Source of the DNA: Akkermansiaceae bacterium
GTDB lineage: Bacteria; Verrucomicrobiota; Verrucomicrobiia; Verrucomicrobiales; Akkermansiaceae
NCBI GenBank assembly: GCA_013001695.1
Contig: JABDMC010000158.1
Location: 1-33,792, forward strand
Length of the DNA stretch: 33,792 bases
Direction: 5' to 3'
Part shown: positions 3,535 through 25,205 of the stretch, piece after piece
Numbering within the stretch: the stretch's first letter is position 1
Layout of the letters: the number at the start of each line of letters is the position of its first letter
Position numbers and translations under genes: made by a program
The notes under the pieces: model-generated
Databases searched by the model: none
What the model was told of the DNA's origin: nothing
What the model saw: only the letters and a program-made list of their open reading frames with translations

Positions 3535-3672
3535 AACGGCGAAGGTGGAAACCCGCGGCCCGGGGACGGTTGTCGATTTCCGTCACTTCCGGGCAGGACC
3601 GGCCCGCAATTCCCATTTTTTCCATGAGGTCTGGCCCGATCTGGGCTAGTGATTGATCGACGTCCGTCATTC

Positions 3673-5274
3673 ATGACCAACGAGGAACGCTACGAGTTCA
3701 AGGACAAGCTGGGTGAGGGTGGCCGCGGGTCCGTGTATGAGGCTTACGACCACCAGTTGCGCCGCAAGGTCGCCATCAAGCGCCTCCACCCGGGCGACGA
3801 GATCGATCCGGACGAGGCTTACGAGATGGTCCTCAAGGAGTCGCACGCCCTGTCGGCGCTGAACTCCCCGAACATCGTGCGGATCTACGACGTCGGGCAG
3901 GACCAGGAGGGCCCCTTCGCCGTGATGGAACTCATCGACGGCAAGACGCTCGACCAGGTCGTGGAGCGGGCCCCCATGGTGGAAGAGGACTTCTACACGC
4001 TCGCCGAGCAGGCCCTTGAAGCGCTGGTGGCGGCCCACAGCGCCAACCTCCTGCACCGTGACATCAAGCCGGCCAACCTGATCCTCGCGTGGCTTCCGAG
4101 CGGGCGCATCATGGTGAAGCTCCTCGACTTCGGCCTCGCGAAGTTCACCACCACCTCGACGATGGACGGCGGCGGCGGCGGGTCCGTGGTCGGGTCGATC
4201 TATTTCATGGCGCCGGAGCAATTCGACCACCAGCCGCAGGACGAGCGCACCGACCTCTACGCGCTGGGGTGCGTCCTGTACTTCGCGCTCGCGGGCGACT
4301 ATCCGTTCGGCGGCGACAACGCCACCGAGATCATGGCCTCGCACGTCACGGGCAACTGCGTGGACCTGAAGGCCCAGCGTCCCGACCTGCCGCCGGCGCT
4401 CTGCGAGTGGGTCATGAAGCTCATCGCCACCGAACCCGGCGAGCGGCCGGAATCGGCCCACGAGGCCCTGGAGGCGCTCGAGGTTTTGCGCAAGGAGGCC
4501 CTCTCGGGAACATCCGCGGTTTCGGCGCACACCAGCCGGGTGAAGCTCGCCACCGGGCCGGTGACCGAGAAGCCCGCCGGGGAGACTACCGGGCCGGTCC
4601 TCGCGCGGCGCTCGCTGTCGGGCCGTTCGACCGCCGATCACGATTCCTCCGGCCCGCCGCCCCGTCTCGATTCCTCGCCGGGGCTGCCGAAGTGGTTCCT
4701 CCCGACGGCGGGGGCCCTGGTGGTCCTGATCCTCGCGCTGGCGGTGGCCCTGCTCACGCGTTCCGGCTCCGGCGAACCGGAGTCCCCGCCCGGGGCAACC
4801 CCCTCGCCGCCGGCGGGGAAGGTCGTCGTGACCCCCAAGGCGTCCGAGGGGGTCGGCGCCGGCCCGGGACCCGGGGCGCGGGAGCAAGCGCCGGCCAAGA
4901 GCGACGATCTTCCGGAGCGCTTCTTCCGCGAGCGCGACGAGAACGGGGACGGTCGACTGACCTTCAAGGAGTACCTGCCCGTCTTCGACCCGGAGATCCG
5001 CAAGGCCGAGAAGAAGACCTTCAACACCTTCGATACCGACGGGGACGGCGTCCTCAGCCTCGCGGAAGTCCGCCGCAAGGGCGCCGGCATGGCCCAGTTC
5101 CTGGCGCGCGACAAGGACGGGGACCTGCAGCTCAATCTCACCGAGTGGCTCAGCTTCCGCCCCCCGCCGAACCGGCCGGCGCAGACGGAGATATTCAAGA
5201 AGAAGGACACCGATGGAAACGGCATCCTCACCCTGAAGGAATACCGGGTGAGGGCATCCCCCCCGGAGAAGTAG
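3673..5274 (+). CDS. Membrane Ser/Thr protein kinase with C-terminal EF-hands
   Basis: A Hanks-type kinase of 533 aa. The kinase domain covers residues 7-275: glycine loop GEGGRGSV (14-21), ATP-binding Lys36 in VAIK, catalytic HRDIKPANL (128-136), DFG (152-154), APE (180-182). A linker rich in Ser, Pro and Arg leads to one membrane segment (about 344-362). Beyond it, a Pro/Gly-rich spacer is followed by four EF-hand calcium loops at 422-433, 454-465, 480-491 and 512-523. Loops 1, 2 and 4 have Asp/Asn at positions 1, 3 and 5, Gly at 6 and Glu at 12; loop 3 has Leu at position 6. With the kinase cytoplasmic, the EF-hands lie outside the membrane, where PASTA or similar sensors usually sit, suggesting calcium-dependent signalling. 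A GTG start at 3649 would add eight residues; ATG 3673 is chosen because the kinase fold begins right after it. Confidence 0.93.
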   Translation: MTNEERYEFKDKLGEGGRGSVYEAYDHQLRRKVAIKRLHPGDEIDPDEAYEMVLKESHALSALNSPNIVRIYDVGQDQEGPFAVMELIDGKTLDQVVERAPMVEEDFYTLAEQALEALVAAHSANLLHRDIKPANLILAWLPSGRIMVKLLDFGLAKFTTTSTMDGGGGGSVVGSIYFMAPEQFDHQPQDERTDLYALGCVLYFALAGDYPFGGDNATEIMASHVTGNCVDLKAQRPDLPPALCEWVMKLIATEPGERPESAHEALEALEVLRKEALSGTSAVSAHTSRVKLATGPVTEKPAGETTGPVLARRSLSGRSTADHDSSGPPPRLDSSPGLPKWFLPTAGALVVLILALAVALLTRSGSGEPESPPGATPSPPAGKVVVTPKASEGVGAGPGPGAREQAPAKSDDLPERFFRERDENGDGRLTFKEYLPVFDPEIRKAEKKTFNTFDTDGDGVLSLAEVRRKGAGMAQFLARDKDGDLQLNLTEWLSFRPPPNRPAQTEIFKKKDTDGNGILTLKEYRVRASPPEK

Positions 5275-14268: not shown

Positions 14269-14374
14269 CCCTCCCGCATGGGAATCCGGGAACGTCCCGC
14301 ACGCCCGTCGATCGAACGCCCCGCGGGCCTCATGCCCCTTGCGCCGTGCCGCTCCGGACCCTAGGTTCTCCGGC

Positions 14375-16225
14375 GTGCGCGGGCTCCTTGCCATTTCCCT
14401 CCTTGTTCTTCCCCTCGCCGCGGCGCCCGAGTTCGGCCGGGACGCGCGCCCCATCCTCGCGAAGTACTGCTTCTCCTGCCACGGCGAGGACAAGCAGGAA
14501 GCCGGCATCGAGTTCCACGAGATGACCAGCGACGAAGATGCCTTCCGGAAGCACCGGCTCCTGGAGCACATCGAACAGCAGGTCGCCGACGACGAGATGC
14601 CGCCGTTCGAGGCCGACGAGCAGCCCACCGAGGCGGAACGCGACCAGCTCCTCGCCGCGATCCGCCACCTCGTCGGACGCGTCGAGCGCGGCGAGGTGCC
14701 GAAAAACCCGGGACGCGTCACCATCCGGCGCCTGAACCGCAACGAGTACAACTACACCGTTCGCGACCTGTTCGGGATCAACTTCCTTCCGGGCCGCGAT
14801 TTCCCCGCCGACGGCGCGGGTGGCGAGGGCTTCGACAACACCGCCGACGCCCTCTTCCTCCCGCCGGTCCTCATGGAGAAGTACCTCGCCGCCGCGGACC
14901 GCGTCGTGGCGGCCCTCTACGCCAACCAGCGGCTCAGGCAGCGCATCCTGTTCGTCAAGCCGGAAGACAAGGTGACTCCCGAAGACGCGGCGCGACGCAT
15001 CCTGAACTACCACGGCGCCCTCGCCTTCCGCCGCCGTCTCACCGACGACGACCTCGCCCCGCTGGTGGCGGCGGTGACCACCGGCGTCGCCGCGGGGAAG
15101 TCCTTCGAGGAGGCCATGCAGGTCCCGTTGAAGGCCATCCTCGTCCACCCGCGCTTCCTGTTCCGCATCCAGCACGACGAGCAGGGCCGCGGCGAATGGC
15201 CGCTGGACGATTTCGAACTCGCGGCGCGCCTCTCCTATTTCCTCTGGTCGTCCATGCCCGACCGCGAACTCTTCCAACTCGCGGATGAGGGGAAGCTCCG
15301 GGACCCGGAGGTCCTGCGCGCCCAGGTGGCCCGCATGATCAAGAACCCGAAATCGAAGTCGTTCGCGCGCCACTTCGCCGGGCAATGGCTCGGTTTCGAC
15401 GACCTCATCGACCGCATCGAGCCCGACAAGGACCGCTTCCCCCGGTTCACCCGCACCCTGCGGGCCGCCATGTACCGCGAGTCGGAGCACTTCTTCGACC
15501 ACCTCATCCGGAACAACCGCCCGGTCACCGACCTCATTCATTCCGATTACACCTTCCTGAACGCCGAGCTCGCCCGCCACTACGGCATCGCGGGCGTGAC
15601 CGGCGCGGAGATGCGGAAGGTCCCGCTCACCGACCCCAACCGCGGGGGCGTCATCGGGATGGGAAGCGTCCTGACCGCAACCTCCCTCCCGCTGCGCACC
15701 AGCCCGGTGAAGCGCGGCAAGTGGATCCTCGAATCGATCCTCGGCGACCCTCCCCCGCCGCCGCTCCCCGACGCGGGCGAGCTCCCCGCCGACGACAAGT
15801 CGCCGGAGGGCCTCAGCTTCCGCCAGCGACTCGAGATCCACCGCCGCAAGCCGGAGTGCGCGTCATGCCACGCCCGGATCGATCCGCTCGGCTTCGGGCT
15901 GGAGAACTTCGACGCCATCGGCCGCTGGCGCACCCACGAGGTCAACGGCAAGCCGGTCGACTCCTCGGCGGTCCTCCCCGGCGACATCGCCTTCTCCACC
16001 CCCGCCGAGCTCAAGGAGCTTCTCATGGGCGCCAAGGACAAGGTCGCCCGGAACCTCTGCCGCAAGATGCTGGCCTACGCCCTCGGCCGTTCCCTCGAAT
16101 ACTACGATGAACCGGTCATCAACGGCCTCCTCCGGGTCCTGCAGCGCCACGACTACCGGATCGAGCCCCTCATCATCGCCATCGCGGAGTCCTACCCGTT
16201 CCAGAATCGCGGCGCCAGGCGGTGA
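14375..16225 (+). CDS. DUF1592/DUF1588 planctomycete-type cytochrome protein
   Basis: A secreted 616-aa protein with the full module order of this PVC family. Signal peptide (1-17), N-terminal cytochrome c-like domain with CFSCH at 32-36, DUF1587 (RLNRNEYNYTVRDLFG), DUF1595 (RRILNYHGALAFRRRL), DUF1592 (ILVHPRFLFRIQ and LSYFLWSSMPD), DUF1588 (GGVIGMGSVLTATSLPLRTS and CASCHARIDPLGFGLENFD, second haem site at 495-499) and DUF1585 to the end. Two covalent haems are therefore expected in the periplasm. The family is regularly paired with DUF1552; a role in oxidative breakdown of polymers has been proposed but not, to my knowledge, shown. The GTG at 14375 is chosen because the signal peptide begins there; the longer open frame would need a TTG and lacks a usable signal start. 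Its DUF1552 partner follows after an inverted gene. Confidence 0.93.
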   Translation: MRGLLAISLLVLPLAAAPEFGRDARPILAKYCFSCHGEDKQEAGIEFHEMTSDEDAFRKHRLLEHIEQQVADDEMPPFEADEQPTEAERDQLLAAIRHLVGRVERGEVPKNPGRVTIRRLNRNEYNYTVRDLFGINFLPGRDFPADGAGGEGFDNTADALFLPPVLMEKYLAAADRVVAALYANQRLRQRILFVKPEDKVTPEDAARRILNYHGALAFRRRLTDDDLAPLVAAVTTGVAAGKSFEEAMQVPLKAILVHPRFLFRIQHDEQGRGEWPLDDFELAARLSYFLWSSMPDRELFQLADEGKLRDPEVLRAQVARMIKNPKSKSFARHFAGQWLGFDDLIDRIEPDKDRFPRFTRTLRAAMYRESEHFFDHLIRNNRPVTDLIHSDYTFLNAELARHYGIAGVTGAEMRKVPLTDPNRGGVIGMGSVLTATSLPLRTSPVKRGKWILESILGDPPPPPLPDAGELPADDKSPEGLSFRQRLEIHRRKPECASCHARIDPLGFGLENFDAIGRWRTHEVNGKPVDSSAVLPGDIAFSTPAELKELLMGAKDKVARNLCRKMLAYALGRSLEYYDEPVINGLLRVLQRHDYRIEPLIIAIAESYPFQNRGARR

Positions 16226-16240: not shown

Positions 16241-17143
16241 TCAGGCCCCGCCGGTGTTGAACGCCCGGGAGGCCTCCTCGATCACCTTCCGCTCCGGCAT
16301 CGGGCCGTCGATGATCAGGAACCGGTAGTTCACCTCGAGCGACTCCCCGTCGCTGATCTCCTTCTCGAAGAAGGAACCAAAGCGGCCATAGTTGCGGTAC
16401 GCCGAGTGCCGCGTCCCCTTGGGATTGTCGCGGTGGTTTATCTGCACCACGCTGTAGGTCTTGCCGTCGAGCACGTAGGTTTCCGCAATCCACGGAAGAT
16501 CGCGGTCCTTCTTCAGGTTCACGTCGTCGTCCGGAAAGAAGTAGGCCGTCTTCTTCACGTCCACCGTATCCGCCGGCCGGTACTGGATGCCGGCGTGCTC
16601 CGGATCCCCCTTCAGGGATACGTCCCCGTGGTTCGCCGCCAGGACACTCCGGAAATCGATCACCACGCGGGCCGGCCCCTTCTTCGGCTCGTGCACCACC
16701 ATGGTGCGGGTCTCCTCGAGAAACGGCTTCTCCCCGTCGTCGTGCCAGTGCGTCTTCGACACGATCGAGGCCCGGTTGCCGGCCGCCTCGTTGCCGGCGA
16801 ACTCCTGGTGCACGATGTCGCCGCCCTTCATGTGCCAGCGGTCGTGCCTCTTCCCTGCGAACTCGATTTTGCTCCACCCGATGAAGATCCCGCGGTGATG
16901 GGTGAACCGCCCGCCCGCTCCCTTCGTGATCGGCTTCTTCCCCTCGGCGTCGAAGACGTGCAGGTACGGCTTGTAGGTCTCGTGGTGCCGCTCCGGCGTC
17001 GAGGTGTCGTGCGCGTACATGTAGCGCACCAGCACCTTGCCGTCCGAGACGACATCGAGATGCTTCCCGGCCTCGTCGACGATCTCGAGATCCGCAAACA
17101 ACGGGGGGGCGAGGGCAAGGAGGGCAAGGGTCGTGAGTCGCAT
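16241..17143 (-). CDS. PmoA-family (DUF6807) secreted protein
   Basis: A protein of 300 aa with a signal peptide (MRLTTLALLALAPPLFA). The body is beta-rich and matches what I know as the PmoA-like/DUF6807 family: YLHVFDAEGKKPITKG, FTHHRGIFIGWSKIEF, DIVHQEFAG and AYRNYGRFGSFFEKEI. The name PmoA in annotations is misleading, since this is not methane monooxygenase. These proteins are frequent in PVC genomes near sugar oxidoreductases and DUF1080 proteins and may act on or bind glycans; the activity is not established. The gene lies between the DUF1592 and DUF1552 genes in opposite orientation, converging on the former (15 bp between stops) and diverging from the latter (136 bp). ATG 17143 is chosen for the signal peptide. 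Confidence 0.85.
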   Translation of the reverse strand: MRLTTLALLALAPPLFADLEIVDEAGKHLDVVSDGKVLVRYMYAHDTSTPERHHETYKPYLHVFDAEGKKPITKGAGGRFTHHRGIFIGWSKIEFAGKRHDRWHMKGGDIVHQEFAGNEAAGNRASIVSKTHWHDDGEKPFLEETRTMVVHEPKKGPARVVIDFRSVLAANHGDVSLKGDPEHAGIQYRPADTVDVKKTAYFFPDDDVNLKKDRDLPWIAETYVLDGKTYSVVQINHRDNPKGTRHSAYRNYGRFGSFFEKEISDGESLEVNYRFLIIDGPMPERKVIEEASRAFNTGGA

Positions 17144-17210
17144 GGCTTGCCACCATACCGGACATTTCGCCCCCGCTTTCAAGCCATTCCGGCCGCCACT
17201 CCAAATTCGC

Positions 17211-17238
17211 TCGAAATCCGGCCCGATCCGCCGATACT
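17211..17238 (+). promoter_or_regulatory. Candidate promoter for the DUF1552 gene
   Basis: In the 136-bp divergent region, TCGAAA (17211-17216) and GATACT (17233-17238) are 16 nt apart and would place transcription start near 17245, about 35 nt before ATG 17280. A weaker minus-strand pair (TTGAAA at 17177-17182 and TATGGT at 17152-17157, 19-nt spacer) could serve the PmoA-like gene. Both are pattern matches only. Confidence 0.2.
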
Positions 17239-17279
17239 TTCCCGCGGGAGTCCCCGATCACCCGCAACCCGCCCCTCCG

Positions 17280-18680
17280 ATGGCCAACATCCAGAGCAAC
17301 CAGTGGCAGATCTCCCGGCGCACCATGCTGCGGGGCGCCGGGGCCACCATGGCCCTCCCGTTTCTCGAGGCCATGCAGCCCCTCGCCGCGGCCCCGGCCG
17401 GCGGCAGCGTGCCGGTCCGGATGGCCTGCCTCTTCATGCCGAACGGCGTGCGCTCCGACAAGTGGACCCCCGAGGGCGGCAACAACATGAAGCTCTCGCC
17501 GATCCTCAAGCCCCTCGAAGCGGTCAAGGACGACATCCTCGTCCTGTCCGGGCTCTCCAACAAGGGGTCCTTCACCGGCGACGGGCACTACGTGAAGACC
17601 TCCGGCTGGCTCACCGGCACCACCATCACCAAGACCACCGGCAGCGACATCAATTGCAACGGCATCTCCATGGACCAGGTCGCCGCGGCCCAGATCGGCC
17701 AGGACACCAAGCTCCCGTCAATGGAACTCGGCTGCGAACCGACCGCCGGCGGGGTCGACACCAACGTCAATTACACCCGCCTCTACGCGTCGCACATCGC
17801 ATGGAAGAAGCCCACCGTCCCCCTCCCGTGCGAGATCAACCCGCGGATCGCCTTCGACCGGCTCTTCCGGAGCCGCTCCCGGCAGGGCAGCCGCCAGGCC
17901 GCCGACGACAAGTCGGTCCTCGACCTCGTCTCGTCGGATGCGAAACGCCTCCAGGGGAAACTCGGCAAGGCCGACCAGCAGAAGCTCGATGAATACCTCG
18001 AGAGCATCCGCGAGGTCGAACGCCGCATCGAACACGAGGCCAACCAGCTCGGCGGCGGCGAAAACCTCCCGCCCGAGATCCTCGCCAACATGGACGCCCT
18101 CGACAAGCGCATCTCCAAAGCGATGGGCAAGGCGAGCCGCGAGGAGGAACTGAATTCCCGCCCGCGCCTCGACCACACCGAGCACGTGCGCCTCATGATG
18201 GATATCATGGTGCTCGGATTCTGGTCGGACTCCACCCGGGTCTCGACGTTCATGTTCGGCAACGCCGTCAGCGGCCGCAATTTCTCGTTCCTCGAGGGCG
18301 TCGACGGGTCGCACCACTCGATATCCCACCATACCGGGAACCAGAAGCAGCTCGACCAGTACCAGCGCATCAACACCTGGCACGTCGCCCAGTACGCCTA
18401 CATGCTGGAACGCATGAAGGAGATCAAGGAGGGCGCGGGCACCCTGCTCGATCATTCCATGGTCCTCTTCGGTTCCGGGATCCGCGACGGCAACAGCCAC
18501 AACCCGCGCAACGTCCCGATCGTGCTCGCCGGCAACGCCAAGGGGCAGATCCGCACCGGCCGGCATCTCGAGTGCGGCGCGGGAACGCCGCTCTGCAGCC
18601 TCTACAAGGGGATGCTCAAGCGCGTCGGCGCCAAGGTCGGCCCCTTCGGCGACGCCACGGCGGAACTGCGCAACCTCTAG
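17280..18680 (+). CDS. DUF1552 Tat-exported protein
   Basis: A protein of 466 aa, typical for DUF1552. A twin-arginine signal is visible at the N-terminus (SRRTMLRGAGATMALPFLE), so it should be exported folded, perhaps with a cofactor. Family motifs include FMPNGVRSDKWTPEGGN near residue 54 and a C-terminal GSGIRDGNSHNPRNVPIVLAG region. In PVC genomes DUF1552 is nearly always next to a DUF1592 protein, and here the partner lies upstream across the inverted PmoA-like gene. The biochemical role is unknown; cooperation in extracytoplasmic oxidation is speculation. ATG 17280 is used because the Tat signal begins there. The UGA-containing gene starts 37 bp after its stop on the same strand and may share its transcript. 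Confidence 0.92.
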   Translation: MANIQSNQWQISRRTMLRGAGATMALPFLEAMQPLAAAPAGGSVPVRMACLFMPNGVRSDKWTPEGGNNMKLSPILKPLEAVKDDILVLSGLSNKGSFTGDGHYVKTSGWLTGTTITKTTGSDINCNGISMDQVAAAQIGQDTKLPSMELGCEPTAGGVDTNVNYTRLYASHIAWKKPTVPLPCEINPRIAFDRLFRSRSRQGSRQAADDKSVLDLVSSDAKRLQGKLGKADQQKLDEYLESIREVERRIEHEANQLGGGENLPPEILANMDALDKRISKAMGKASREEELNSRPRLDHTEHVRLMMDIMVLGFWSDSTRVSTFMFGNAVSGRNFSFLEGVDGSHHSISHHTGNQKQLDQYQRINTWHVAQYAYMLERMKEIKEGAGTLLDHSMVLFGSGIRDGNSHNPRNVPIVLAGNAKGQIRTGRHLECGAGTPLCSLYKGMLKRVGAKVGPFGDATAELRNL

Positions 18681-18717
18681 CCCCGCGGGCCGGGGGATCC
18701 CGCCGCGGCCCCTTGCC

Positions 18718-19905
18718 ATGAAACCACTGCCCGTTCTCCTTCTCCTCGCCGCCCCGGCGCCGGCCGCCCCGGAAGACCAGGTCCCCGGGGCCGGCAACCT
18801 CCGGGCGTGGATCGACCACGTCCGCCCGGCGGAGTCCGAGCGCGGCTGGGAAGCGATCCCGTGGCGCAACGGGTTCCTGCGGGGGGTCGAGGAGGCGAAG
18901 CGCCTCGAGCGCCCCGTCCTCCTGTGGACCATGAACGGCAACCCCTGCGGGGAAACCTGAAACAACGGGGTTGCGGGACGTCGCGAGGTCTGGTCAGACC
19001 CGCGCATCCAGGAGATCGCCGCCGAGTTCGTCTGCTGCACCGACGAATGCGACATCCTCTTTCCGCGCAACGGTTACCTCCTTGAAAAACTCAAGGACGA
19101 TCCGGCTGTGCACCTGTTCCGCGATGTGTTCGGCAGGCAGGTGCCGCCGGCGCAATGGGACCCGGATCCCTCCGTCACCCGCCAGGGCGTTTACTGCATG
19201 ATGCCCGACGGCACCTATCTCGGGGCCAAGCATGCCGGCGCGTGGAGCGGACACGTCCTCCCGCTCCTCCGGGAGGCACAGCAGCGCTGGCTGCGCATCA
19301 AGGAGCAGCGCGGCCTCCACCCGAAGCCCATCCCCCGCCAACGGCCGATGCAACAGTGGATCGCGGAGCGCGCCGGCAAGGCGGGCCTGCTGCTCGCCCT
19401 GCACTACCGCGACCTCCCGCGCGGGGAGGACACCGACCGCGACGGCGGCCGCATCGGCGAATCATGGAACCGGCGCTGGATGGAACTGGACCGGGAGGAA
19501 GCCCGCGCCCTCGTCCCCGAGACCCGCGAGTGGCAGGCGGTGCCCGCGTCCCTGGCGAGGCGCCTGGCCCGCATGGAACTGAAGGATATCGTCCACGGCC
19601 AGAGCCCGGAGTGGTCGGACCAGCACGTCCGGAAGTCCGCCCTCCGGGTGCGGAGAACGGGCGAACAGGGCGGGGTGGTCACGATCGAGCTCCGCGGCGA
19701 TTTCGACCTGCGCGACGGGAAGCGCCGTTTCCGGCCCGCGTTGTACGGCGAGGCGGTCTTCGATTCCAACACCGGGCGCTTCACGTCCTTCCAGGCCTTC
19801 GCGGCCGGTCCCCGCACCGGCGGGACGACCTACAATTTCCGCGGGAAGGACCCGGGCCCCGCCCCGCTCGGTATTTCGCTGGTCATGGAGGACGGCCGCC
19901 CCTGA
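18718..19905 (+). CDS. Candidate selenoprotein, thioredoxin-like, in-frame UGA at codon 81
   Basis: One open frame of 395 codons interrupted only by TGA at 18958-18960. Codons 1-80 start with a signal-like segment (MKPLPVLLLLAAPAPAAP) and reach a thioredoxin-like strand and redox site, RPVLLWTMNGNPCGET, then UGA, then NNGVAGRREVWSDP and FVCCTDEC in the same frame. The UGA would be Sec81, with Cys77 four residues before it. A hairpin at 18976-19009 with a GGUC loop lies just downstream and fits a bacterial SECIS. The C-terminal half (about residue 280 on) looks beta-rich and is not recognised. No frameshift is present and GC-rich third positions continue on both sides, which argues against a decayed gene; a sequencing error or a genuine nonsense mutation remains possible. 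If UGA is read as stop, the products would be an 80-aa peptide and an orphan downstream frame. It lies 37 bp after DUF1552 and 56 bp before a sulfatase. Confidence 0.7.
18976..19009 (+). promoter_or_regulatory. Candidate bacterial SECIS hairpin
   Basis: Directly downstream of the in-frame UGA (18958-18960). The upper stem is GGTCT (18987-18991) with AGACC (18996-19000), loop GGTC (18992-18995). It continues through a single bulged A (18986) into CGCG (18982-18985) with CGCG (19001-19004), 9 bp in all. A weaker lower stem runs out to 18976 and 19009. The loop begins 31 nt after the UGA, and its first two bases are G. Both match general rules for bacterial SECIS elements (loop 16-37 nt from UGA, G at the start of the loop). 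From memory, the E. coli fdhF SECIS also has a GGUC-containing loop and a bulge in the upper stem. Confidence 0.6.
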
Positions 19906-19961
19906 GCGGGACGAAGTTTCCCCTTTTGATCGCGGCGGCGTGCGGCTAGAACCCGCCATTG

Positions 19962-21452
19962 ATGAAAGCGCCGTTCATTCTCCTCGCCGCGTGTTTCGCG
20001 ATCATGGCCCCGTCGGTTTCGGCGCGACCCAACGTGGTCTTCTTTCTCGTCGATGACCTCGGGGTCATGGACCTCGGGTGTTACAACCCGGAAACCTTCT
20101 ACGAAACGCCGAACTGCGACAAGATCGCCGCCTCGGGGTGCCGGTTCACGAACGGCTACGCGGCCAACCCGGTGTGCTCGCCGACCCGTTACTCGATCAT
20201 GACCGGCAAGTACCCGTCGCGCCCGGATGCCACCAACTTCTTCGCGGGCCGGCGCGAGGGCCGGTTCAAGCCGGCGCCGTTGCACGACCGCATGGACCTC
20301 GACGAGGTCACCCTCGCGGAGGCCCTGCAGGAGGCGGGATACAAGACCTGCTTCGCCGGCAAGTGGCACCTCGGCCCCACCGAGGAGTTCTGGCCCGAGA
20401 ACCAGGGATTCGACGTCAACATCGGCGGACACAACCGCGGGTCCCCGCCGGGCGGCTACTTCGCGCCCTACACGAACCCGCGCCTCCCGAGCGGACCGAA
20501 GGGCGAGCACCTCCCGGAACGCCTCGCCCGGGAATCGATCAGGTTCATCGAGGACAACAAGGGCGGACCGTTCCTGCTCTACCTCTCGTTTTACTCGGTG
20601 CACACCCCCCTGCAGGGGCGGCCGGAGCTGATCGAAAAATACACCCGCAAGGCGGCCGCCCTCCCGGCTCCCGATGCCGTGCCGGAATTCGCCGACGAGG
20701 AGCAGATCTGGCACAAGGCCGCCAAGGCGCGCGGCGGCGGGAAAGCCGGCTCCCCCGCCCCGCCGCGCAAGGTGCGGGTCCGCCAGCGCCACGCGACCTA
20801 CGCCGCCATGATGGAGTCCATGGACACCGCCGTCGGCCGGGTGCTCGACGCCCTCGAGTCACACGGCCTCGCCGGCAACACCATCGTCTGCTTCATGTCG
20901 GACAACGGCGGACTCTCCACGTCGGAAGGCAGCCCCACCTCCAACCTTCCCTTCCGGGGCGGGAAGGGGTGGCTCTACGAGGGCGGCATCCGCGAACCCT
21001 TCATGATCTCCGCGCCCGGCGTCACCACGCCGAACTCGGTGTGCGACGTGCCGGTGACCTCGACCGACTTCTACCCGACCCTCCTCGAACTGGCGGGCCT
21101 CGAACCCCGCCCGAAGCAGCACCTCGACGGACTCAGCCTCGTTCCCCTCCTCAAGAACCCCTCCGCCACCGTCGGCCGCAAGGCCCTTTACTGGCACTAC
21201 CCGCACTATTCGAATCAAGGGGGATTCCCCGGCGGCGCCATCCGCATCGGCGACTACAAGCTCATCGAGCGCTACGAAGACGGCCGCACCCACCTCTACA
21301 ACCTCGCCAAGGACCCCGGGGAGCGCTTCGACCTCGCCGAGAAGCTCCCCGACCGCGTCCAGTCGATGCGCCCCAAGCTCCACGCCTGGTACACCGACGT
21401 CGACGCCAAGTTCCTCCAGGCGAAGGACGGGAATACACCGTGGCGCCCCTGA
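19962..21452 (+). CDS. Secreted S1-family sulfatase
   Basis: Hydrolyses sulfate esters outside the cytoplasm. The 496-aa protein has a signal peptide ending near SVSA (residue 21). It has the S1 signature CSPTRYSIMTGKYP with Cys72, which must be converted to formylglycine, plus metal-binding Asp31-Asp32 (FFLVDDLG), GKWHLGP and MSDNGG. The C-terminal LYNLAKDPGERFDLAEKL motif is intact, so the gene is complete. ATG 19962 is preferred to the overlapping TTG at 19959. It starts 56 bp after the UGA-containing gene and ends just before a block of REP-like repeats. Its substrate cannot be told from sequence by eye; a sulfated polysaccharide is likely. No sulfatase-modifying enzyme is in the window. 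Confidence 0.93.
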   Translation: MKAPFILLAACFAIMAPSVSARPNVVFFLVDDLGVMDLGCYNPETFYETPNCDKIAASGCRFTNGYAANPVCSPTRYSIMTGKYPSRPDATNFFAGRREGRFKPAPLHDRMDLDEVTLAEALQEAGYKTCFAGKWHLGPTEEFWPENQGFDVNIGGHNRGSPPGGYFAPYTNPRLPSGPKGEHLPERLARESIRFIEDNKGGPFLLYLSFYSVHTPLQGRPELIEKYTRKAAALPAPDAVPEFADEEQIWHKAAKARGGGKAGSPAPPRKVRVRQRHATYAAMMESMDTAVGRVLDALESHGLAGNTIVCFMSDNGGLSTSEGSPTSNLPFRGGKGWLYEGGIREPFMISAPGVTTPNSVCDVPVTSTDFYPTLLELAGLEPRPKQHLDGLSLVPLLKNPSATVGRKALYWHYPHYSNQGGFPGGAIRIGDYKLIERYEDGRTHLYNLAKDPGERFDLAEKLPDRVQSMRPKLHAWYTDVDAKFLQAKDGNTPWRP

Positions 21453-21455
21453 GCG

Positions 21456-21552
21456 GCGGTTCTCGTGGCCCTTCAGGCCACCGCCCACCCCCGTGACCGA
21501 AGGGACCCCGGCCTGAAGGCCGGGGCTCCGGTATCACGGCCCTTCAGGCCGT
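21456..21552 (+). repeat. 97-bp REP-like repeat, copy 1
   Basis: Nearly identical (94 of 97 bases by eye) to 22155-22251 in the same orientation, so the two copies bracket the RAYT gene. It contains three palindromes: GTGGCC/GGCCAC around CTTCA, CCCCGGCC/GGCCGGGG around TGAA, and ACGGCC/GGCCGT around CTTCA. It begins 3 bp after the sulfatase stop, so its first hairpins may also end that transcript. Confidence 0.9.
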
Positions 21553-21622
21553 TGGCCATCGCTACGAAAGCGCCGTCGTCCAGGCCGGTGGCCATGGTTC
21601 CGGGAGTACGGTCGTTCACGGG

Positions 21623-21686
21623 GCGGGCTGGAGGCCCGCGACATCACAGCCCCGGCCTTCAGGCCGGGGTGGTCCGCGAGAACCGC
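21623..21686 (-). repeat. Inverted REP-like palindromes left of the RAYT gene
   Basis: Contains GCGGGC/GCCCGC (21623-21639) and a perfect 8-bp hairpin CCCCGGCC-TTCA-GGCCGGGG (21650-21669), then CGAGAACCGC (21677-21686). The last 10 nt are the exact reverse complement of the first 10 nt of the 97-bp repeat (22155-22164). The RAYT gene is thus also framed by inverted copies of the REP start. Its stop is 5 bp further on. Confidence 0.8.
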
Positions 21687-22164
21687 ACGCTCAATCCCAC
21701 ACGTATCGCTCGTCGTATTCCACCCCGCGCTCAGCCAGGAACCTTCGAAATTCCTCCTTGAAGGTGACCACCTTGTGATGCTCGGCCTGCTTCGCCACGT
21801 ACTGCGTCACGGTTTCCACATTCGATGCATCGACCGAAAACGCCCCGTAGCCGCCCTGCCACCCGAATCCCGCCAGCATCGGAAACTGTTCCTTCACCCA
21901 CTTCGAACTCTGCCCCTTGATCTCCCCCACGACTTTGCTCGGAACCTTGTTCTTCGAGGCCCGGTAAAGGAGGTGCACATGGTCGAAATGCCCGCCTACC
22001 TTGATGGCGGGGCTGTCCTGGGCGTTGAGGGCGCCCGCGAGGTACGGAAACAACTTGTCCTGCACCTCTGCCGACAACCACGGCTCCCGGTTCTTCGTGC
22101 TGAAGATCAGGTGGACGTAGAATTGCGTGAGGGATTGCGGCAAGGGAAGGAATTGCGGTTCTCG
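21677..22164 (-). mobile_element. RAYT/REP unit with 10-bp inverted ends
   Basis: The interval from CGAGAACCGC (21677-21686) to GCGGTTCTCG (22155-22164) is bounded by a perfect 10-bp inverted repeat and holds only the IS200-like transposase gene. REP-type hairpins lie immediately outside both ends. This is the arrangement expected of a REP-associated tyrosine transposase with its substrate palindromes. No target-site duplication is expected for this mechanism. The exact cleavage points cannot be read by eye. Confidence 0.6.
21691..22143 (-). CDS. REP-associated tyrosine transposase (IS200-like, Y1_Tnp)
   Basis: A 150-aa single-strand DNA transposase of the HUH superfamily. From the TTG at 22143 the protein starts MPQSLTQFYVHLIFSTKNRE, the standard start of this family. 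The HUH motif is HVH (His55, His57) in GGHFDHVHLLYR, and the nucleophilic tyrosine is probably Tyr115 in TVTQYVAKQAEHH. The remaining family features, KGQSSKWVKE and GWQGGYGAFSVD, are present and the length is complete, so it may be active. A longer reading frame from 22236 would run through the 97-bp repeat and is rejected. No Shine-Dalgarno sequence is seen before the TTG. The flanking REP-like palindromes are its likely substrates; such genes are usually single copy and domesticated. Confidence 0.92.
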   Translation of the reverse strand: MPQSLTQFYVHLIFSTKNREPWLSAEVQDKLFPYLAGALNAQDSPAIKVGGHFDHVHLLYRASKNKVPSKVVGEIKGQSSKWVKEQFPMLAGFGWQGGYGAFSVDASNVETVTQYVAKQAEHHKVVTFKEEFRRFLAERGVEYDERYVWD

Positions 22165-22251
22165 TGGCCCTTCAGGCCACCGCTCACCCCCGTGACCGAA
22201 GGGACCCCGGCCTGAAGGCCGGGGCTTTGGTATCACGGCCCTTCAGGCCGT
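22155..22251 (+). repeat. 97-bp REP-like repeat, copy 2
   Basis: Same orientation and order of palindromes as copy 1 at 21456-21552. Three substitutions are visible: C to T in the CCGC(C/T)CACCC segment, and CC to TT after the GGCCGGGGCT hairpin. It begins 11 bp upstream of the RAYT start codon, so it may carry or influence that gene's promoter. Confidence 0.9.
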
Positions 22252-22404
22252 GCAATCCCGCCGGCCACCGCCGCACGGGTTCCGCCTCGGCAAACCGCGC
22301 AATCCCGCCGGCCACCGCCGCACGGTTTCCGCCTCGGCAAACGGTGCAATCCCGCCGGCCACCGCCGCATGGGTTCCGCCTCGGCAAACCGTGCAATCCC
22401 GCGG
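22250..22404 (+). repeat. 47-bp tandem repeat, 3.3 copies
   Basis: Units begin at 22250, 22297, 22344 and 22391 (partial). Copies differ at only one to four positions. Each starts with GTGCAATCCC or GCGCAATCCC and ends with CCTCGGCAAACC or similar. The unit joins directly onto the end of the 97-bp repeat, from which the first GTGCAATCC probably derives. There are no variable spacers, so this is not a CRISPR array. No open frame across it has protein-like content. Confidence 0.88.
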
Positions 22405-22419
22405 GCTGATGGCCCGCGG
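22399..22419 (-). terminator. Hairpin after the Dabb gene
   Basis: CCGCGGGC (22399-22406) pairs with GCCCGCGG (22412-22419) around a 5-nt loop. It lies 8 nt beyond the stop of the minus-strand Dabb gene. No U tract follows, so it could be a REP-like palindrome that blocks or stabilises the transcript end rather than an intrinsic terminator. Confidence 0.35.
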
Positions 22420-22427
22420 CTGGGGCG

Positions 22428-22736
22428 CTAGCGGGGTTCCAGATCCATCACGAGGACCTTCGCCCACCAGTCCTTGAACGACGCCACGAACTCGTTGTGG
22501 TGCGGGTCGTCGCCCTGGTAGGCATCGTGATCGGCGAGGGTGGCGAACTTGAAGGAGATCCCGTAGTCCCAGGAATGATCGGTCACGGGGCGCTCCGGGG
22601 TGGGGGCCGATGTTCCCCACGTTCCCGCGGCGAGATTCCTCGACTGCGCCAGCTTCCGGAGTCCCTCCTCGAACGCCGCCCGGTCGGCATCGTTCTTCCG
22701 CTCGTCCTTGAACCAGAAGTAGACATGGTGTTCCAT
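22428..22736 (-). CDS. Dabb (stress-responsive alpha/beta-barrel) family protein
   Basis: A 102-aa cytoplasmic protein of the dimeric alpha/beta-barrel (Dabb) family. It starts MEHHVYFWFKDE, has a central LRKLAQSRNLAAGTWGT and ends with HDAYQGDDPHHNEFVASFKDW, the usual Dabb pattern of strand, helix and His/Asp-rich turn. Members bind small ligands or protect under stress; some are cyclases or monooxygenase-like, but nothing here says which. Length is normal. No Shine-Dalgarno sequence precedes ATG 22736. The GNAT gene lies 49 bp upstream on the same strand, so the two may be co-transcribed. Confidence 0.9.
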   Translation of the reverse strand: MEHHVYFWFKDERKNDADRAAFEEGLRKLAQSRNLAAGTWGTSAPTPERPVTDHSWDYGISFKFATLADHDAYQGDDPHHNEFVASFKDWWAKVLVMDLEPR

Positions 22737-22785
22737 GCCCGTCGTCTAGCGGCGCCGTCGCGGATGCGCAAGCCCCGGGCGGGCC

Positions 22786-23241
22786 TCAATCCTCCGGACG
22801 GCCGCGGCTGCCCCCGGGATCCTTTTCCATCTTCCAGTGCGGGATCCCGACTTCCTCGAAGCGGCCGCCCACCCGCGTGTATCCGAGTTTCTCGTAGAAT
22901 CCCACCGCCTCTTCCCGGGCGTGGAGCTCGAACCCGGCGGCGCCCTCCTCCACGAGCCGGGCCTCCACCGCGCCCATGATGGCCCGCCCGAGCCCGGACC
23001 GCTGGCGATCCGGCGCCACCGCCATCTGCCGCACCTTCACCCGTCTTCCCTCCAGCCAACGCGCCGACACGCAGGCCACCACCGCCCCGTCGTCGAATCC
23101 GGCGAACTGCCATTCCCCGGGTTCCATGGCCTTCTCTTCCGGCGTCCAGAAAATCCCCAGCGGATCCCGCAGGACCCGGCGGCGCAGGGCGAGGGCCTCC
23201 TCGTACTCGGGCGAGCCGAATTCCAGCTTCTGCACGTCCAC
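22786..23241 (-). CDS. GNAT-family N-acetyltransferase
   Basis: A 151-aa acetyl-CoA-dependent acetyltransferase. Motif A is VRQMAVAPDRQRSGLGRAIM at about residues 69-89 (Q/RxxGxG/A loop binding pyrophosphate of CoA), and motif B includes AVGFYEKLGYTRVGGRFEEVGIPHWKM. The last segment, with the HW pair, resembles YjcF/ElaA-like members. Substrate unknown. The start is GTG at 23241, supported by AAGGAAGGGG directly upstream; a second in-frame GTG lies two codons later. It precedes the Dabb gene by 49 bp. Confidence 0.9.
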   Translation of the reverse strand: MDVQKLEFGSPEYEEALALRRRVLRDPLGIFWTPEEKAMEPGEWQFAGFDDGAVVACVSARWLEGRRVKVRQMAVAPDRQRSGLGRAIMGAVEARLVEEGAAGFELHAREEAVGFYEKLGYTRVGGRFEEVGIPHWKMEKDPGGSRGRPED

Positions 23242-23334
23242 CCCCTTCCTTATCCGCCGCCGGCGCGGATGGGAAGCCTGCGCACCCCGGGGACGATCGC
23301 CACCCCACGAAGGATTCCCCGCCGCCGCTGGGAC

Positions 23335-24078
23335 TCAGGGGCGCCCGTTCGCGGCGGGCTCCTTCCCTTCGATCAGGCGCACCGCCTGCCGGGCCAGCCG
23401 CCTGCCGAAGAGGTCGTACCCCTCCCGCGTGTAATGGAGGTCGTTGTGAGGCTTGCCATCCTTCACCTTGTTGTTGGTGTCATCGGTGTCAACCCACGCC
23501 CCCCGCGGATCCTCGGCCGCCACCTTGACCTGCGCCTGCCGCACCCCCGACCATGACGGCTTCGCGGAATGGTCGCTCAGGCGCCCGATGACCACGTTCA
23601 TCTCCGGGGCGTCGAGGTCCTTGCGCAGCTTGGCGATGAGGTTGCGCAGGGCGACATCGTAAACGGTGTGCAGCCCGGCGTTCGCGTCCCGCTCGCCCTG
23701 CATCCAGAGGAAGGTGATCGTGTCGGGCTTCTTCTCCGCGATGGCTTCCCGCGCCAGCTTCACGACCTCGTCGTAAAACGGCGCCGGATCGTTGAAGCCG
23801 GTGAAGCCCCGCTCCTTGAGCTGCTCCCCGTGCATCGCCAGCAGGATCTCGTCGAAGTCGGACACCCAGCGGCGGATCGGCATCCCGCCCTTCGCAAACT
23901 TCACGTGCCGGATCTCGGCGTCCGGAAGAAGTTTCTCGAGCTCCGGAAGAAAGGACCGCTTCGGGTCCAGGCCCGCCATGTTCGACTGCCCCGAAAGAAT
24001 GAAGAGGTGACGATCGCCCCCGTCGGCGGCCAGGGGGAGAAGGATGGCGGCGGCCAGAAACAGCACGCGGGCGTTCAT
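23335..24078 (-). CDS. Secreted SASA/CE6-type carbohydrate esterase
   Basis: A 247-aa protein with a signal peptide (MNARVLFLAAAILLPLAADG). It has the sialate O-acetylesterase/CE6 signatures: HLFILSGQSNMAG with nucleophile Ser32, FLWMQGERDA (block III) and NDLHYTREGYDLFG with the catalytic Asp-His pair. It likely removes acetyl groups from sugars in plant or algal polysaccharides (acetyl xylan esterase type) or from sialic acid; context favours polysaccharide. ATG 24078 is preceded by AAGGAAGGGG, a strong Shine-Dalgarno sequence. It stands between the GNAT gene and the DUF1080 gene, with gaps of 93 and 161 bp. Confidence 0.92.
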   Translation of the reverse strand: MNARVLFLAAAILLPLAADGGDRHLFILSGQSNMAGLDPKRSFLPELEKLLPDAEIRHVKFAKGGMPIRRWVSDFDEILLAMHGEQLKERGFTGFNDPAPFYDEVVKLAREAIAEKKPDTITFLWMQGERDANAGLHTVYDVALRNLIAKLRKDLDAPEMNVVIGRLSDHSAKPSWSGVRQAQVKVAAEDPRGAWVDTDDTNNKVKDGKPHNDLHYTREGYDLFGRRLARQAVRLIEGKEPAANGRP

Positions 24079-24239
24079 GACCCCTTCCTTAGACCGCACC
24101 CGGCCGATTGTCAGGGGATTTTCCGCGTTCCGAAGTTCCGGGTCGCTTCCCTCCCGACCGGGACGGCAGGTCAAGCGGGGCCGGGCCCGGGCGCACCTTC
24201 GCCGCGGAGAGCGGCGCCCCCCGGAATCCCACGCGCCGG

Positions 24240-25007
24240 TCACCCTTCCGTCCTCCGCCCGGTCTTCCGGATCCGTTCGGCCTCCTCGGCCCCGATTTCA
24301 CGGATGAAGACATTGCGCCAGCGAATCTCGCCGCCGTGCGTCTGGAGCTGGATGGGTCCCTTTTCCGGCAGCGGCCCCTTCCGGTTGAAGTAGTTCTCCA
24401 TCCGCGCGAAGTCGACCACCAGCTTGCCGTTCAGGTAGACGGTCACGTTCTCCCCGACCATGATGATGCGGAAGCGGTTCCACTCGCCGAAGGGCTTGTC
24501 GGCGAGAACGAGCGGGTCCTTTCCGGGCGCCCCCTTGCTGTTGTTCCAGAGCCCGCCGGATCCCTTGTCGGCCCCGATCTTGAACTTGCCCGGATCAGTG
24601 TAGTCCCAGATCTGCACCTGCGGGACCGCGCGGAGGTAAATCCCGCTGTCGGCCTTCGGCACCGTCTTGTAGTCCACCAGCAACTCGAAGTCGGCGTAGT
24701 ACTTGTCGGTCGTGAGATACAGCCCCTGGCCGTCGTTGACCAGCACCCCGTCCTCCACGCTCCAGTGCTTCCGGATATCCTCGAGGCTCTTCTGCTTCTT
24801 CTCCGCGAACTTTTTCGGATCCAGGGCCATCCACTTCGCGGGGTCCTCGGTCTTCAGTCCCCACCAGCCGGTGAGGTCCTTTCCGTTGAACAGCGCGGTG
24901 AACCCCTCCGGGGGCTTCTCCTCCGCGGCGACGGGGGAAACAAGGGCCAGGGCGGACAGGACCACCCAGGCAAGCGGGCGTCGGGAGCGGGGCGGGCGGA
25001 TTCTCAT
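24240..25007 (-). CDS. DUF1080 secreted protein (3-keto-disaccharide hydrolase type)
   Basis: A protein of 255 aa. The signal peptide (residues 1-28) has an Arg-rich n-region, RPPRSRRPLAWVVLSALALV, but not a clear Tat motif. The body is a concanavalin-like jelly roll, DUF1080: FTALFNGKDLTGWWG, DSGIYLRAVPQVQIWD, WNRFRIIMVGENVTVYLNGK and IQLQTHGGEIRWRNVFIRE. Members with known activity cleave 3-keto-glycosides formed by sugar oxidoreductases; others are only predicted. No GFO/IDH/MocA oxidoreductase is in this window. It is divergent from the sulfatase at 25206 (198 bp between), in which I see no convincing promoter. Confidence 0.92.
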   Translation of the reverse strand: MRIRPPRSRRPLAWVVLSALALVSPVAAEEKPPEGFTALFNGKDLTGWWGLKTEDPAKWMALDPKKFAEKKQKSLEDIRKHWSVEDGVLVNDGQGLYLTTDKYYADFELLVDYKTVPKADSGIYLRAVPQVQIWDYTDPGKFKIGADKGSGGLWNNSKGAPGKDPLVLADKPFGEWNRFRIIMVGENVTVYLNGKLVVDFARMENYFNRKGPLPEKGPIQLQTHGGEIRWRNVFIREIGAEEAERIRKTGRRTEG

Positions 25008-25205
25008 GGCTTCGGTGTGGTGCTTCGATCCGTTCTACTACGCGCCCAGTCCATGGCGATTTCAAAATGTTCCCTCTTTGGAGGCACGGACGGAAAGCCC
25101 GGGCCTCTTCCGGCCGTATCCGCGCCACGCTGCCGGTGTCCGGGAGCCCCCGGGAACTAATTCCTTCCCATCCCCGCACCGATTCCCTCAACTCCCAGCA
25201 TCACC

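Follow-up and report, generated by a model that had tools for sequence, protein, structure and literature searches.

A probable exported selenoprotein of an Akkermansiaceae bacterium with a thioredoxin fold and a U-x-N-G motif, from an apparently undescribed family

The in-frame UGA, its conservation and its probable decoding

In 33,792 nt of DNA from an Akkermansiaceae bacterium (the window, by which we mean the whole stretch analysed), the frame that begins with ATG at 18718 ends with a TGA at 19903–19905 and contains exactly one internal stop, a TGA at codon 81. Does the bacterium stop at this codon or read it as selenocysteine (Sec), and what would the resulting protein do? A preliminary description made from the letters of the sequence had proposed a secreted, thioredoxin-like selenoprotein, and its coordinates and residue motif for the single in-frame TGA proved accurate. 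The features discussed in this section are as follows.

18718–19905, plus strand: probable selenoprotein gene, 395 aa with U81, a single frame reading through the TGA at 18958
18946–18948, plus strand: Cys77, candidate resolving residue for Sec81 in subfamily A only (the position differs among subfamilies)
18958–18960, plus strand: probable selenocysteine codon 81 (UGA); TGA in all 148 Sec-type loci; its column corresponds to the leading Cys of CxxC in distant thioredoxin proteins
18980–19005, plus strand: bSECIS-type stem-loop, core GGUCU[GGUC]AGACC at 18987–19000, loop at 18992–18995, 31 nt from UGA to loop

Residues 73–88 read NGNPCGETUNNGVAGR. The third-position GC content is 0.91 before the TGA and 0.88 after it (versus 0.90 in those other window genes that were examined), in line with the equally GC-rich third positions first remarked on both sides. 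As anticipated, automatic annotation would split the gene into two short ORFs. The observation that the downstream part lacks a nearby start holds only loosely, as a GTG start is present at 19108. TGA also serves as the ordinary terminator of at least four window genes, this one and at least three others.

Verrucomicrobiota and Planctomycetota contain 148 distinct homologous loci (pooled and non-redundant) with TGA in the codon 81 column, although identity among the TGA-keeping homologues of the two phyla falls to about 20%. Such recurrence of the stop codon is far beyond chance. Of 97 genomes from the family to which the window belongs, 25 have a member, and a 25-sequence profile (A1) revealed members in 101 of 392 Planctomycetota genomes (~26%). 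The finding is larger than first described, and in both samples about a quarter of the genomes are concerned. Among 388 Verrucomicrobiota sampled across the phylum, the profile added few full-length members, and most of the extra matches were Cys-type thioredoxins. A pattern scan of a contig collection yielded four orthologues with 38–52% identity, all with TGA, from Verrucomicrobiales, Phycisphaeraceae and another planctomycete. Three main motif subfamilies can be distinguished: A, to which the window protein belongs (CGETUNNG), B, the large majority ([GA]C[TV]U[NG]NG), and C (NCUQNG). The window genome itself carries a diverged paralogue on contig C377 with 31% identity and likewise one TGA (L002, G000:C377:2988-4067); it is of subfamily B (GHPLGCTUNNG) and has a DUF2330 gene directly downstream.

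The preliminary description had pointed to selA, selB, selC and selD as a check on the Sec reading, and all four are present in the window genome (97% complete): SelA (482 bits), SelB (286 bits), SelD (378 bits) and a tRNA-Sec with UCA anticodon (69.8 bits). SelD also contains an in-frame TGA (SSCAGUASK; L232, G000:C106:8706-9632, minus strand) at its known Sec site, and this Sec form of SelD serves as a positive control that the genome uses Sec. Family members and tRNA-Sec occur together: in Planctomycetota tRNA-Sec was found in 94 of 101 carriers of the family versus 156 of 291 other genomes (Fisher p = 1.6e-14), and in the window's family in 22 of 25 carriers versus 17 of 72 others (p = 1.6e-8), where tRNA-Sec was counted only at ≥89 nt and >49 bits because tRNA-Ser also matches the tRNA-Sec model. 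Seven planctomycete carriers show no tRNA-Sec, three of which (G559, G636, G758) have Ser or Pro members. TGA-type members without a detected tRNA-Sec occur in the planctomycetes G564, G626, G676 and G742 and in G054, G070 and G083 of the window's genus, which is likely explained by incomplete assemblies.

For bacterial SECIS elements, a loop of 3–9 nt with G in the first two positions, an upper stem of 4–16 bp, a loop located 16–37 nt after the UGA and a minimum free energy of at most -7.5 kcal/mol have been specified (PMC13188914). The window hairpin, with its GGUC loop, 5-bp core stem and 31-nt spacing, agrees with these specifications; the region 18979–19010 folds at -13.5 kcal/mol, within the energy limit, with z = -2.48 against dinucleotide shuffles. 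Four registers of the hairpin relative to the UGA were found in the family (+14..+28, +17..+33, +27..+40, which is that of the window, and +12..+30). Full pairing in one of these registers, which were picked after inspection of the data, was observed in 103 of 147 loci, which are related and thus not independent, compared to 17.5 ± 3.8 (maximum 37 in 200 draws) when synonymous codons were redrawn according to the codon usage of the respective gene, and to 44.6 ± 4.3 (maximum 57 in 500) when codons were permuted among loci within a given position and amino acid. In the other 44 loci, none of the four registers is fully paired. At +15/+27 both partners are third codon positions, and the pair appears as GC, CG, UA, UG, GU and AU. 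All nine subfamily-A loci keep GGTCA in the loop, even though TCA accounts for 1.6% of Ser codons across the counted window genes. When the 57 nt following the UGA were folded as a whole, however, the energy did not fall below the level of synonymous recodings (mean z = -0.05; for the window, z = -0.44 over a 60-nt stretch), so the case for a SECIS element rests on the local hairpin. An Rfam search of 18700–19300 gave a viral frameshift element at 18763 as its only match, below threshold, which we judged to be due to chance. Taken together, the retained UGA, the complete decoding gene set and the covarying hairpin downstream, that is, all the checks on the original proposal that can be computed, support selenocysteine, and the bacterium most probably reads UGA 18958–18960 in this way.

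Replacement of selenocysteine within the family

Homologues with either Cys or UGA at codon 81 had been expected. UGA was found in the 148 loci, but no full-length Cys homologue appeared among some 800 PVC genomes or in the single pattern scan made of a wider contig collection; instead, the eight non-Sec members carry Ser (six), Asp (one) or Pro (one). Cys occupies the Sec column only in distant Thioredoxin_7-like proteins (TGSDWCPPC), whose first Cys aligns with Sec, and in one paralogue of the N-terminal domain in the window genome (L091, G000:C237:21776-22111), which consists of this domain only and has PCCPGG in place of xTUNNG. Sense codons other than Cys had been named as an argument against Sec, and eight sequences have them. 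On a midpoint-rooted FastTree tree of 147 members, however, Sec is the root state and the eight sequences form four small lineages nested among Sec members, so that four changes, apparent losses of Sec to Ser (twice), Asp and Pro, account for all of them. Three genomes with non-Sec members are also without a detected tRNA-Sec, and in view of both observations we do not regard these sequences as refuting Sec. Two tandem or near-tandem pairs, L133 (G572:C37) and L138 (G623:C321), combine in one genome one Sec copy with one Ser or Asp copy and constitute a natural test of the effects of Sec loss.

The Cys77-x3-Sec81 arrangement that had been emphasized holds for the window protein, but not as a constant of the family: relative to Sec, a Cys lies at -2 in 117 of the 148 loci, at -1 in 10 and at -4 in 9, and 12 loci have no Cys within six residues upstream. 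Besides Sec, the nearly fixed residues are Asn at +2 (95%), Arg88 (about 100%), Gln156 (98%) and Gly157 (100%).

19183–19188, plus strand: Gln156-Gly157, with Gln kept by 98% of Sec members and by no non-Sec member

Gln156 is replaced in all eight non-Sec members (by His, Gly, Glu or Asp), while Trp49, Pro66, Gly74, Arg88, Gly157 and Gly165 are retained. The loss of Gln156 in every non-Sec member ties this residue to the function of Sec, and across four apparent losses the link offers a direct test of Sec retention. The conserved motif on the Sec side is U-x-N-G plus a distant Gln-Gly rather than Cys-x3-Sec. We consider it possible, a shade short of an even chance, that this is a widespread, Sec-only family specific to PVC bacteria in which Cys cannot replace Sec, and in which loss of Sec or of its decoding leads to Ser, Asp or Pro, to loss of the Gln partner and to an inactive paralogue.

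Probable export, fold and possible reaction

For the protein and its genomic surroundings, we identified the following features.

18718–18765, plus strand: probable N-terminal signal peptide (MKPLPVLLLLAAPAPA), as read from the sequence
18829–19317, plus strand: thioredoxin-fold domain, residues 38–200 (AlphaFold2 model, VIA-align)
19387–19887, plus strand: mostly beta C-terminal domain, residues 224–390, without Pfam match
14339–16225, plus strand: 'planctomycete cytochrome c' protein (PSCyt1/DUF1587/1592/1595/1588/1585)
17037–18680, plus strand: DUF1552 (HXXSHH) protein, 37 nt upstream of the selenoprotein gene
19959–21452, plus strand: sulfatase, downstream of the selenoprotein gene

A hydrophobic leader also starts most homologues of the 25-sequence profile, and the window protein is probably exported. 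An AlphaFold2 model calculated from five sequences (pLDDT 77, pTM 0.70) bore out the proposed thioredoxin-like nature: residues 38–200 match 3f9u_B with a VIA-align Z of 11.8 (rmsd 2.6, 109 residues aligned), with further matches to DsbH (2ju5, Z 9.5), DsbD gamma (2fwf, Z 8.9) and AGR3. At the sequence level, Pfam gave only a sub-threshold match to Thioredoxin_7 (PF13899; 13.1 bits versus a cut-off of 27, and 14.0 for the paralogue), and a profile search of PDB sequences gave no match. In the model, Sec81 lies in a loop between strand 67–72 and helix 82–92 (residues 75–86 have pLDDT < 50), and thioredoxins carry their first active-site Cys in the corresponding loop. A CxxC active site is absent; U81-N-N-G84 takes its place, with Sec aligned to the first Cys. 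From the downstream DG turn and the strand order of the model, Gln156-Gly157 would stand in place of the thioredoxin cis-Pro loop, before strand 4. For the C-terminal domain, which was modelled only within the whole protein, Foldseek gave no convincing fold match.

We propose that SelB and Sec-tRNA(UCA) would decode UGA 18958–18960, directed by the hairpin at 18980–19005, and that the hydrophobic leader would direct export. Outside the cytoplasm, the Sec81 selenolate, held or assisted by Gln156 and perhaps by Asn83 and Trp70, could then serve as the nucleophile that attacks a substrate (a peroxide or a disulfide), and Cys77 may resolve it as a selenylsulfide. In the catalytic tetrad of glutathione peroxidases (GPx), Sec is held by Gln, Asn and Trp. 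We hold this overall reading of an exported selenoprotein, with hairpin-directed decoding, Sec81 in a thioredoxin fold as the proposed nucleophile together with Gln156, and Cys77 as the candidate resolving residue, with high confidence. We infer an extracytoplasmic seleno-oxidoreductase or peroxidase, and peroxidase and disulfide oxidoreductase would deserve roughly equal weight.

The genomic neighbourhood was considered as a clue to function and set aside, as PSCyt, DUF1552, DUF1501, DUF1553 or sulfatase neighbours were seen again at just 10 of 100 loci, whose flanks were limited. The adjacency to DUF1552 recurs at one non-Sec homologue (L131) and is not general. Elsewhere in the window, about 3.7 kb (21453–25205) contain short ORFs only, four of which (21775–22212, 22497–22976, 22837–23553 and 23569–24390) had no Pfam match, and 3649–5274 encodes a Ser/Thr protein kinase with EF-hand repeats at its C-terminus.

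An ordinary split or decayed gene, or a sequencing error, would produce the two short ORFs of an automatic annotation, but its probability is practically negligible, given that 148 loci share the TGA with frames intact on both sides and that the C377 paralogue has one too. Together with the normal TGA stops in the window, the conserved loci rule out sequencing error, pseudogene and change of the genetic code. UGA still acts as a normal stop here, which would suit a programmed or regulatory stop yielding mostly an exported peptide of 80 aa, with another amino acid inserted upon read-through. We regard this as very improbable: the family is strictly linked to tRNA-Sec, the bSECIS-type hairpin shows synonymous compensation, Sec sits at the redox position of a thioredoxin fold, and a regulatory stop would need neither the tRNA-Sec nor the Gln156 link.

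If the protein is a selenoprotein, it need not be a peroxidase and could instead serve exported proteins as a thiol-disulfide oxidoreductase or isomerase, with the wandering Cys and Sec as the redox couple, as the closest thioredoxin folds (DsbH, DsbD gamma, AGR and Thioredoxin_7-type proteins) and the Cys within four residues upstream of Sec in 136 of 148 loci suggest. However, U-N-N-G has no second downstream redox residue, unlike CxxC, the cis-Pro is apparently replaced by Gln-Gly, the Cys is missing in 12 loci, and the link to Gln would recall glutathione peroxidases; we give this alternative somewhat less than an even chance. A role of Sec as a ligand for a metal or metalloid (handling of Hg, As, Cu or Se) instead of a redox catalyst is unlikely: metal binding has been suggested for some bacterial selenoproteins (review PMC13188914), but the neighbours examined include no metal-handling genes and the protein has no recognisable ligand set.

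Relation to known selenoproteins and thioredoxin-like proteins

The window protein has no significant match in Pfam or in NCBIfam release 20.0 (June 2026), including the NCBIfam models that PMC13188914 lists for Haft's families, and no such motif occurs in the 119-family selenoprotein inventory of that review. The open-access literature searched contains no description of the family, with a small chance of an earlier informal planctomycete listing; the family is apparently previously undescribed. The homology step of deep-Sep filters out selenoproteins without Cys homologues, and all known selenoproteins are said there to have such homologues (PMC12013277). The family, for which no full-length Cys homologue was found in the genomes searched, would have been filtered out and missed for this reason, and it challenges that statement. 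It also provides a concrete selenoprotein, with predicted export, for Sec-decoding PVC bacteria, many of which are without cultured relatives. Beyond the family, six very distant thioredoxin-like loci have an in-frame TGA beside Cys or Thr (L092 at G024:C23:56423, L148 in G648, L149 in G526, L150 in G506, L090 in G461 and L228 in G526; motifs among them include EEFCUANG, VGVCUAAG, DERCUVFA and LGRTUGAC), and these may represent further undescribed selenoprotein families.

The only named selenoprotein model matched even faintly was NF041199 (trx7_PDZ_seleno; 2 of 25 members, best E 0.024), with no match to the window protein itself at E 1. This Trx7/PDZ domain-containing (seleno)protein likewise has a Thioredoxin_7-like domain with Sec, but combines CxxU, where Sec is second, with PDZ, whereas our family has U-x-N-G, where Sec is first, no PDZ match and another C-terminal domain. 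The VPGUxxT thioredoxin-like (seleno)proteins NF041382 and NF041383 (single members only, E 0.07–0.09) are also thioredoxin-like with Sec leading, but their listed motif is VPGU without a Cys before Sec, compared to [TV]U-x-N-G here. Thioredoxin_7 (PF13899), DsbH, AGR2/AGR3 and DsbD gamma have the thioredoxin fold in common with the window protein (structural Z 8.9–11.8), and DsbH, AGR and DsbD gamma are exported or extracytoplasmic; they carry CxxC or CxxS, whereas the window protein has U-N-N-G, an extra loop before the active site and, at the C-terminus, an additional beta domain. No match to glutathione peroxidase was obtained in Pfam or NCBIfam, and GPX8 was among the Foldseek matches. 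GPx and the selenoprotein family described here both combine Sec and Gln in a thioredoxin-type fold, and Gln, Trp and Asn, the residue types that join Sec in the GPx Sec-Gln-Trp-Asn tetrad, are conserved here in the primary sequence; motif and domain layout differ, however, and any common tetrad would represent convergence.
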